Positions 1,351-5,219 of a stretch of 27,129 nucleotides of DNA are shown piece by piece. This DNA is from a virus. The notes under the pieces were generated by a model. The model saw only the letters and a list, made by a program, of their open reading frames with translations, did not search any database and was not told where the DNA came from. Where the stretch lies: IMG/VR virus record IMGVR_UViG_3300046777_001756, positions 1 through 27,129 of that record, one strand, 5' to 3'. Every line of letters begins with the position of its first letter. Position 1 is the stretch's first letter. A program made the translations under genes and the position numbers.

Positions 1351-1904
1351 TGCATCCCTTTTTTACAAGCGTGTTTAATCGCTTCATGTGCTAAATAGTG
1401 CTTTTTGCTCGCCATGATTTTAGGAATAAATCCCTCTTGATCATTGTAGGCCTTTTCTCGATAGTAAATATCCGCTGCATGAATTGTTAAGGCTTCGCGC
1501 TCGGCTTTGGTCATGGCTCGCCAAAACTTATCGGCTATCGCCTTTGCTTCAAACATGGTACCCATCCACTCATTGAACCCTAGGCTATCAATGTACTTTT
1601 GTTTGGCGCGCAGGAAAAATTGCTCCTCCGCTTCATCTTGAGCAACTTGCTTGGTGTTCTCGATGTGTTGTTGCAATACAACCTGCTTTAGCACTTGCTT
1701 GGTGGTTATGTATTGGCGAATGGGTGTCATGAACTCGTCAAGGGTCATCTTTTGCCCGGGAATTTTTTGCACAGGTGTGAACTCAAAGCAAGTCTTTAAG
1801 TCGTCAAGCGAAAGCGGTTCGCGAGAATTTGTAAGCGCCTGAACAATTGAAGCCAGCAAGCTATCACCTATTCGCTCAGGTTCCAATCCGTAGCGTATCT
1901 CCAT
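1344..1904 (-). CDS. unknown protein next to the DUF6291 gene, possibly replication-linked
   Basis: I place the start at the ATG at 1904, giving 186 residues (MEIRYGLEPERIG...). The same frame is open back to an ATG at 2105, but those 67 extra residues are Ser/Leu/Ile-rich, look like a shadow, and would overlap 230 bases of the upstream gene, whose C-terminus looks real in that stretch. With the 1904 start the overlap is 29 bases and a GGAG lies just before the ATG. The protein is helical and charged, with a basic end (KHACKKGMQW). The middle (about residues 30-65) faintly resembles accessory replication proteins that follow DUF6291 genes in Bacteroidota phages. I do not recognise a named domain. 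No catalytic motif is visible. Confidence 0.7.
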   Translation of the reverse strand: MEIRYGLEPERIGDSLLASIVQALTNSREPLSLDDLKTCFEFTPVQKIPGQKMTLDEFMTPIRQYITTKQVLKQVVLQQHIENTKQVAQDEAEEQFFLRAKQKYIDSLGFNEWMGTMFEAKAIADKFWRAMTKAEREALTIHAADIYYREKAYNDQEGFIPKIMASKKHYLAHEAIKHACKKGMQW

Positions 1905-2748
1905 TATCTCCAAAATCAGGCTCTGCGCCTCTACTATCGTACTTGACAAGTTTACCAATGAACTCCGTAGGATTGATTGAGCCTGTTGCGTGCTCAAGAT
2001 AACGTTTCGCGAGCGCAACTTGCTCAGGATTGAGGCTTCCGAGCCGTTCCAAATTTCGTATAGCTTTGTGGACGTGAGCGTATTTTCGTTCTTGTAATGT
2101 TCCATTTTGTGTAGTTATATGATTGTTATTTGATTGATGAGGTTTTGAGTATCCGTTTTTTTCCCAAGTGCGAACGTTGCTTTGATAGTGGTCGTAAAAC
2201 TGCTCGGCGTTTATTTCGTTTTGACGTTCTTGGCAGTAAGTTGAAATTTCTAAAATTGAAGGAATAAGAAATCTTTTTGACGTATGTATTACTTTTTCTT
2301 CTTTAGAAGGAAAAGTATTAATATCACTTACACTTACACTATCACTATCACTTACACTTACACTTACACTATCACTTACACTTACACTTACAGGTTTTTT
2401 TTCGGTAAAAAATAACCCACTGGGTTCTTCTGGGTTTTTTTGTAACCCAGTGGGTTTTGTTTGGTTTTCTTCTTCTTGAGGTTTTTCCTCTTCTTTTGGC
2501 CTGCCTCCCTTAAATCCGTTTTGCCTTGCTCGCTCTGCTCTTATCTCCCATTTTTGCAAGTCTCTTTTCAATGTAGACTTAAATGGCTCGAACAAAATTT
2601 CAATCATTCGATCGGGCGGCTCAGGGTTTAAATCGTTGACGTACCTAAAAAAATGTTTAATTAATCTACCTGCCTCTTCATCAGATAGCAGCTCGAACGT
2701 GTTTATCCAATCCGTATAAACGATTACGTTCTTTTTTCCTTGCGCCAT
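1876..2748 (-). CDS. DUF6291-like phage protein, probably replication-associated
   Basis: 290 residues. The N-terminal 90 residues (VIVYTDWINTFELLSDEEAG...FEPFKSTLKRDLQKWE, then NGFKGGRPK) match the layout I know for DUF6291 proteins, common in Bacteroidota phages and often near replication genes. A Lys/Glu/Pro linker follows, then a VS/DS repeat (about residues 118-142) encoded by hexanucleotide repeats. The C-terminal domain contains FYDHYQSN joined directly to VRTWEKN; relatives I remember have about 15 more residues (GWKVGKN...KDWKA) between these blocks, so an in-frame deletion is possible. The gene ends in TGA. A structured RNA precedes it and a terminator-like hairpin lies inside it. 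The replication role is inferred from context only. Confidence 0.75.
   Translation of the reverse strand: MAQGKKNVIVYTDWINTFELLSDEEAGRLIKHFFRYVNDLNPEPPDRMIEILFEPFKSTLKRDLQKWEIRAERARQNGFKGGRPKEEEKPQEEENQTKPTGLQKNPEEPSGLFFTEKKPVSVSVSDSVSVSVSDSDSVSVSDINTFPSKEEKVIHTSKRFLIPSILEISTYCQERQNEINAEQFYDHYQSNVRTWEKNGYSKPHQSNNNHITTQNGTLQERKYAHVHKAIRNLERLGSLNPEQVALAKRYLEHATGSINPTEFIGKLVKYDSRGAEPDFGDNGDTLRIGT
2324..2392 (-). repeat. hexanucleotide repeat inside the DUF6291 gene
   Basis: About eleven tandem 6-base units on the plus strand, mostly CACTTA with some CACTAT variants. They encode the Val-Ser / Asp-Ser linker on the minus strand. Six is a multiple of three, so gain or loss of units would change linker length without breaking the frame. 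Confidence 0.85.
2407..2456 (-). terminator. terminator-like hairpin inside the DUF6291 coding sequence
   Basis: Perfect 13-base inverted repeat: AACCCACTGGGTT at 2414-2426 and AACCCAGTGGGTT at 2444-2456, separated by 17 bases. On the minus-strand transcript the stem is followed by A and then six U's (2407-2412). This has the form of an intrinsic terminator, yet lies in the linker-coding part of a complete reading frame. Each arm is itself nearly self-complementary, so smaller hairpins could compete. Whether it terminates transcription is not known from sequence. Confidence 0.5.
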
Positions 2749-2769: not shown

Positions 2770-2865
2770 AAAACAAAAAGCCCCCGTAAATCCATAGGCT
2801 CTCACATCTATTTCATTACAGGGGCAAATAATTCCTTTGGTTCTATGGTGTGAGAGCGAACCGAT
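2770..2865 (-). ncRNA. candidate structured RNA with kissing loops or pseudoknot, ending in a terminator
   Basis: The 137-base gap before the DUF6291 gene holds two hairpins on the minus transcript. Hairpin 1 has stem GGUUC/GAACC (2858-2862 with 2839-2843) and a 14-base loop. Hairpin 2 has the 10-bp stem GCCCCUGUAA/UUACGGGGGC (2816-2825 with 2780-2789, one G-U pair) and a 26-base loop, followed by UUUUUGUUUU. Hairpin 1's loop contains GCUCUCACA (2849-2857), an exact complement of UGUGAGAGC (2798-2806) in hairpin 2's loop. A further pair, CCAUAG (2843-2848) with CUAUGG (2792-2797), also crosses. So the element can form loop-loop contacts or a pseudoknot over a terminator. A TATATTTG box sits just upstream. 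It could be an independent small RNA of about 90 bases or an attenuator for the DUF6291 operon. I do not recognise a known RNA family. Confidence 0.55.
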
Positions 2866-4640: not shown

Positions 4641-5219
4641 TTACTCAAATTCGTTGATTAAACAATAGCTCACTTTCTTTTGCGGCTTGCACATGGTTAT
4701 AATGCGCTTGTATGTATTTACGTCGTTGACAACCTGGCAACCAGCTGACCATCCATTAATAGCTGCGCCGCTTGCTTTGTTTAGGTTGTATGTGTTTGGA
4801 TGGAAATTGATCCCGAAATAACCTTTTTGAAGGGCGCCTTGCTCCTCGCTGTCGTCGTCTTTGTCGGCATCGCGGTAAACTTCGACCTCAGCGCCAAGCT
4901 GGAGCAAAGCCTCAACCTTGCCTTGGTGCTTTCCATAGTGCCAAACATTATAATACCATTTGTCAGCATTGAGCACGGCGGCTCCTGATTTATTGAATTT
5001 TTCATAGTTTGCGAGTACAGGTGTCCCGGGGTTGGTTGTGCCTGATGTTACCAAAACGAACTGCTCACCTAGAAATAAATAGAACTTGTCGTCAAATCGG
5101 TTGGCAATGTCCTCATTTGAGCGGACACCAAGTAACCAATATTCCTGCGGATAACCTTTGAATCCGTCGATTTCGCGCACTTTCTCCAAGAGCTGCGCCG
5201 TTGTGTAGTTTCTAACCAT
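4641..5219 (-). CDS. endolysin with L,D-transpeptidase-like (YkuD-fold) catalytic motif
   Basis: 192 residues. The C-terminal half has His140 in GYFGINFHPNT and SAGC at residues 158-161 (NGWSAGCQVV), the His ... Ser-x-Gly-Cys signature of YkuD-fold enzymes, in which the Cys is the nucleophile. In phages such proteins sit in lysis cassettes and are thought to cut peptidoglycan stem peptides. An acidic loop (YRDADKDDDSEEQG, 115-128) precedes the motif. No signal peptide, so export would depend on the holin. It is the last gene of the lysis cassette, overlapping the u-spanin-like gene by 8 bases. Peptidoglycan cleavage is inferred from motif and place; the bond cut is not known. Confidence 0.75.
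   Translation of the reverse strand: MVRNYTTAQLLEKVREIDGFKGYPQEYWLLGVRSNEDIANRFDDKFYLFLGEQFVLVTSGTTNPGTPVLANYEKFNKSGAAVLNADKWYYNVWHYGKHQGKVEALLQLGAEVEVYRDADKDDDSEEQGALQKGYFGINFHPNTYNLNKASGAAINGWSAGCQVVNDVNTYKRIITMCKPQKKVSYCLINEFE

Follow-up and report, generated by a model that had tools for sequence, protein, structure and literature searches.

A predicted terminator leader RNA with kissing loops ahead of replication genes in phages of Flavobacteriia

The stretch of DNA analysed here (the window) is a virus record of 27 kb (27,129 nucleotides), which carries a Terminase_3-type large terminase and in which nearly all the genes lie on the minus strand. The element under study is intergenic, being located in the stretch 2885-2749 between an ORF of 86 aa and a gene of the DUF6291 family, whose relatives are annotated as "replication protein". 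Two genes downstream of DUF6291, at positions 490-1350, a phosphoadenosine phosphosulfate reductase-like gene (PHROG 424) is found. All the features of the leader are on the minus strand, at window positions 2877-2770 (coordinates are those of the plus strand), and are the following:

2877-2870, minus strand: -7 promoter box TATATTTG, of the Bacteroidota sigma-A type TAnnTTTG, recognised from the sequence and the published consensus
2865, minus strand: predicted transcription start (+1), with the G of the box placed at -5 as in F. johnsoniae
2862-2839, minus strand: hairpin 1, with stem GGUUC/GAACC (2862-2858/2843-2839), in the opening bases of the predicted transcript
2857-2849, minus strand: kissing segment K, GCUCUCACA, in loop 1, read from the sequence; relatives keep the complementarity with other letters
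2838-2826, minus strand: A/U-rich linker AAAGGAAUUAUUU; an AUUAUU-like run is also present in relatives L002, L005, L006, and L172
2825-2780, minus strand: hairpin 2, the terminator hairpin, from sequence, fold, and comparison
2825-2816/2789-2780, minus strand: outer stem of hairpin 2, GCCCCUGUAA/UUACGGGGGC
2815-2812/2793-2790, minus strand: internal loop of hairpin 2, UGAA/GGAU
2811-2808/2797-2794, minus strand: inner stem of hairpin 2, AUAG/CUAU
2806-2798, minus strand: kissing segment K', UGUGAGAGC, in the apical loop of hairpin 2, the exact complement of K
2779-2770, minus strand: terminator U-tract UUUUUGUUUU, with a predicted RNA 3' end at about 2775
1876..2748, minus strand: DUF6291 gene (replication-protein family), the first behind the leader (Pfam PF19808, E=5e-24)

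The -7 element TAHHTTTG has been mapped at positions -12 to -5, with its G at -5, in F. johnsoniae (PMC6847099), and at the same positions in F. psychrophilum (PMC9723704). Since the motif spans -12 to -5 in F. johnsoniae, the start of the transcript can be predicted at 2865, that is, 3 nt ahead of hairpin 1, and the RNA should be about 90 nt long. The outer stem GCCCCUGUAA/UUACGGGGGC followed by UUUUUGUUUU represents an intrinsic terminator, i.e., a G+C-rich hairpin with a U-tract, whose equivalents exist in all the relatives, and the promoter box is kept in nearly all of them. The original prediction of two hairpins, the second one a U-tailed terminator, with loops exactly complementary over 9 bases, is borne out by the sequence, and this arrangement is retained in relatives; the comparison also agrees with the proposal of a self-contained unit of about 90 bases that has its own promoter box and precedes the DUF6291 operon, although as a predicted RNA. 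A further crossing complement of 6 bases (CCAUAG/CUAUGG), which had been taken as part of the structure, is present in the letters of the window but has not been kept in L002, L005, and Flavobacterium phage 11b, and for this reason it was discarded; its CUAU half is instead the 3' arm of the covarying inner stem AUAG/CUAU. No tandem repeats of the kind found in type III toxin-antitoxin RNAs occur within the element, and the gene behind it is DUF6291. Opposite the intergenic element there is no ORF of 60 aa or more, so that it is not an antisense to a gene in the manner of lambda OOP.

The simplest explanation of such a locus would be an ordinary terminator whose loop complementarity is due to chance. 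The energy of the single sequence, when folded without pseudoknots, is indeed unremarkable (z = -1.8 only), and the case therefore stands on comparison rather than on folding energy. In the 27 kb of the window there is one sole high-scoring unit composed of promoter, hairpin, kissing loops, terminator, and ORF (score 30), all the shuffled copies remaining below 25. In order to avoid circularity, 22 non-redundant units upstream of DUF6291 genes were chosen by promoter box and terminator, ignoring complementarity. The longest complement between the leader and its own terminator loop has a mean of 7.5 nt in this unbiased set, reaching at least 6 nt in 21/22 units and at least 7 nt in 18/22; when the loops are swapped among the 22 units, the mean is 4.6 nt and only 5% of the combinations reach 7. 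None of 20,000 derangements attained the observed mean. This permutation result contradicts chance complementarity, as do the covariation shuffles described below (0/500) and the recurrence of the architecture in unrelated phages, leaving this explanation with a negligible probability.

The closest relative found (L002), whose DUF6291 protein is 79% identical in the alignment, shows the same layout in the same place, with the loops GAGUCUC/GAGACUC; the corresponding loop pairs are CCUCUCAC/GUGAGAGG in L005 and CGGGCAGG/CCUGCCCG in Flavobacterium phage 11b. Hence, the letters of the loops vary among elements, and the complementarity within each pair is retained. IMG/VR contigs and cultured phages were scanned with a descriptor combining promoter box, hairpin 1, terminator hairpin, and complementary loops; both the score thresholds and the resulting catalogue of elements are partly hand-curated. 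(A first pattern used on IMG/VR, CGGGCAGG N30-60 CCTGCCCG, was swamped by chance GC-rich palindromes, and a tighter one succeeded.) The same architecture was disclosed in dozens of IMG/VR contigs and, upstream of the replication region, in the Flavobacterium phages 11b, elemoA, lillamy9-1, and FCL-2, as well as in Cellulophaga phages phi19:3 and phi10:1, Olleya phage Harreka_1, Polaribacter phage P12002L, and Croceibacter phage P2559S. The element is the single best match in 11b, elemoA (first 50 kb), lillamy9-1, Harreka_1, and P12002L, with scores of 28-30 and shuffles below 28, and in P12002L it lies 13 nt before a primosomal gene. It is the top match, with score 25, in FCL-2 and P2559S. In phi10:1 the score is only 23, behind two matches devoid of the consensus promoter box, and the element was identified by its near-consensus box and its location ahead of the primase/helicase operon. 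Judging by its name, elemoA is a podovirus, while FCL-2 has an annotated tail sheath. Some phages harbor two to four elements each, with differing kissing sequences.

The element was not found in the temperate phage 6H, in P12024L, in Bacteroides phage B40-8, or upstream of most DUF6291 loci of bacterial chromosomes; similarly, no unit with a promoter was seen ahead of an ATG ORF in 400 kb of the Flavobacterium fluvii chromosome. The absence from 6H and from the region before most chromosomal DUF6291 genes suggests that the element may be tied to a lytic lifestyle. In L008, the region upstream of DUF6291 (4672-4772) has a promoter box and a terminator stem around an interior of about 60 nt, without loop kissing, and is possibly a different leader RNA.

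The 11b subfamily (17 sequences) allowed the pairing to be inspected position by position. In this alignment, 99.3% of the pair cells are paired and 10 pairs show two-sided changes, the covariation score being 0.240 versus 0.078 in shuffled alignments (0/500 shuffles). Covariation is seen in hairpin 1 and in both the outer and the inner stem, and the kissing letters are invariant. The elements of the window type were excluded from the pair counts, their MAFFT alignment misaligning hairpin 1. A covariance model of the 11b type recovers near relatives only, since neither the kissing letters nor those of the stems stay constant. The inner stem is possible in 39/39 catalogued terminator loops, with K' in or adjoining the apical loop, and two types of internal loop recur across unrelated kissing sequences: UGAN/NGAU (8 elements, the type of the window) and GUA/GAA (9 elements), the latter resembling a bulged-G module. 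The original prediction had named the lack of covariation across relatives as one part of its refutation; stems and, between phages, kissing loops were found to covary strongly. On the basis of sequence comparison, the relatives thus represent a real RNA family.

The element is always located directly ahead of an ORF having the same direction. As judged by sequence inspection and annotations, the genes behind it include those for replication proteins (DUF6291 or others), for a helicase of the DEAD type, for proteins resembling SSB or recombination proteins, for a protein resembling RNase H, and for HNH or GIY-YIG nucleases, as well as small ORFs. The distance from the terminator to the next start codon has a median of about 19 nt (8-46 nt among the elements followed by an ORF with an ATG start); in the window, the ATG of DUF6291 lies 31 nt past the terminator stem, with no promoter box in between. 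A TAHHTTTG box between terminator and next start codon was found in 0/32 elements, which implies that, as far as this promoter type is concerned, the gene behind can be expressed only via read-through of the terminator. The closeness of the element to the gene is not special in itself, since operons of the cultured phages (L223-L229) contain further simple intrinsic terminators, 15-43 nt ahead of the start codons that follow them; termination or attenuation inside operons may be a general habit of these phages.

The original prediction had left two possibilities side by side, a free small RNA and a switch acting in cis. According to the former, the element would be a trans-acting RNA of about 90 nt, with a target (RNA or protein) in the host or the phage, which by chance precedes replication genes that are served by read-through from upstream. 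Stable small RNAs typically have, as the element does, a promoter box of their own, a hairpin at the extreme 5' end, a strong terminator, and a compact kissing fold; moreover, one type of element precedes genes as different as DUF6291, helicase, HNH, and small ORFs, and the invariant loops of the 11b type, retained while the stems change, look as though the loop letters themselves count there. On the other hand, the kissing letters turn over fully between phages, and even between the copies of one phage, which fits poorly with a fixed base-paired target, and the position directly ahead of a same-direction ORF is constant. A purely free small RNA, the foremost rival reading, is therefore rather unlikely, and the absence of a box before the next start codon (0/32), together with the median distance of about 19 nt, favours the leader acting in cis.

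The reading that we prefer is that the unit is a promoter-proximal 5' cis leader (an attenuator) of a phage replication operon, locked by its own kissing loops, mostly terminating, and setting expression by read-through; we assign it a probability of about 0.52. Taken together, the comparison supports the promoter box, the hairpins, the terminator, the covarying loop pairing, the placement before replication or DNA-metabolism genes, and the lack of a second promoter box. Transcription would begin about 1-6 nt ahead of hairpin 1, so that the RNA would be structured from its 5' end, and loop 1 would pair, as a rule over 7-10 bp, with the loop at the tip of the terminator hairpin. The RNA, about 90 nt long, would thereby be self-kissing and pseudoknotted, the contact being presumably intramolecular. 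When the terminator's 3' arm is left out of the fold, the best structure is the K:K' helix, which is the first stable long-range helix; for this reason, kissing probably precedes the closure of the terminator stem. The contact, once formed early, might then either prop up or delay the terminator stem. A mutually exclusive antiterminator is not clearly visible, the same fold giving K:K' and no competitor of the terminator stem. Most transcripts would probably end at the terminator and be freed as a compact small RNA; termination is expected to be efficient yet regulated, the regulated quantity being the fraction of read-through, and DUF6291 and the further genes of the operon would be expressed from the polymerases reading through. 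In this way, the leader might set or time the entry into DNA-replication functions. The upstream operon could feed the downstream genes additionally.

As for known systems, no match at the gathering score of Rfam 15 was obtained in the window or at the element in 13 relatives (only DUF805b and tRNA were detected elsewhere; the DUF805b RNA, RF02914, 52 bits, is at 1315-1349 of lillamy9-1, L220). No leader with a kissing-loop terminator was found for phages in the open-access literature that was searched. The element belongs to a known kind, the terminator-bearing leader RNA, and its new feature is the loop-loop lock. Like lambda OOP RNA, it is a short, terminator-ended phage RNA beside replication genes, but OOP is antisense to cII, whereas the element is intergenic and in sense orientation. 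The phi29 pRNA likewise has loops that are complementary inside a single small phage RNA; those loops pair between molecules on the packaging motor, whereas the phage of the window has a Terminase_3-type large terminase and its element is placed before replication genes; intra- and intermolecular pairing look alike from the sequence of the element. Leaders of the purine riboswitch type share with it a cis location and two docking hairpin loops ahead of a terminator; the element differs in having no multibranch ligand pocket and no Rfam match, and in docking through a long Watson-Crick duplex whose sequence drifts freely, unlike the contacts of those leaders.

In phage HK022, nascent operon transcripts begin with the two hairpins of the put RNAs, which are not known to have a built-in terminator or loop-loop complementarity. 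Both put and the element are two-hairpin, promoter-proximal RNAs. By analogy, the nascent RNA might act as a put-like or protein-assisted antiterminator, with the internal-loop motif as a binding site, letting polymerase pass this and later terminators. The two promoter-proximal hairpins heading early-type operons, the recurrent internal-loop types as possible contacts of a protein or of polymerase, and the further terminators directly before genes in these phages are in line with this. However, a canonical terminator forms the end of the element, the promoter box is the sole sequence conserved across all the members, and no antitermination factor was identified, which makes such a function improbable.

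In the attenuation mechanism of plasmid pT181, an antisense RNA acts on a terminator that lies directly before the start codon of the replication initiator (PMC5703833). The attenuators of pT181 repC and pIP501 repR resemble the element in being leader RNA terminators in this very position, and an antisense RNA acting on the loops might likewise decide on terminator formation before the phage replication gene. Those plasmids, however, are switched by the antisense RNA and a pre-emptor, whereas the element bears no sign of an antisense promoter: such boxes over the leader number 4/34 versus 6 expected from shuffles, with no excess. In the fold lacking the 3' arm, which gives the K:K' helix, no pre-emptor pairing with the 5' arm of the terminator stands out, and the complementary loops of the element are in one RNA, each with its own sequence, which pT181 does not require. 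Control of the pT181 type is accordingly very unlikely.

Equally far from probable is a role as replication primer or origin RNA, in which phage DNA replication would be helped to start by the RNA ending at the terminator or by transcription through the initiator gene. The link of the element to replication operons across unrelated phages and the repeats inside the nearby DUF6291 gene speak for it, but several phages have two to four elements, some of which precede homing-endonuclease, helicase, or SSB-like genes.

More broadly, the elements might constitute an undescribed, widespread RNA family of Flavobacteriia phages, i.e., self-kissing terminator leaders with coevolving private loop locks that differ from phage to phage and among the copies of one phage, operating without metabolite or antisense RNA as a switch into replication and recombination operons; this broader proposal is tentative, and we rate it slightly short of even odds. 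Phages of Flavobacteriia abound in marine, lake, and soil habitats, and their transcription control is nearly unstudied. The element is a compact and recognisable predicted regulatory RNA, common to siphoviruses, podoviruses, and myoviruses of this group; its strong covariation is taken as proof of structure, and it occurs in cultured phages. If the proposal is true, a terminator would be linked to the hairpin ahead of it through a lock-and-key duplex whose sequence drifts, and such loop locks may be a source of orthogonal RNA parts.

Two further observations concern the region behind the leader. A second conserved hairpin, CGGTAATCTTAAAACCG, lies past the leader terminator and ahead of the ATG of a small ORF in L220 (2740-2790), L227 (10338-10383), L217 (3754-3797), and L207 (upstream of the first ORF); in lillamy9-1 it reads AGG/CCT, a compensatory change, and it is perhaps a translational operator. 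Lastly, 12-nt tandem repeats coding for SVSVSD are embedded in the DUF6291 gene of the window (2316-2393), and several relatives of DUF6291 share a VSVSV-like stretch; these in-gene repeats are possibly iterons, or an origin within the initiator gene.
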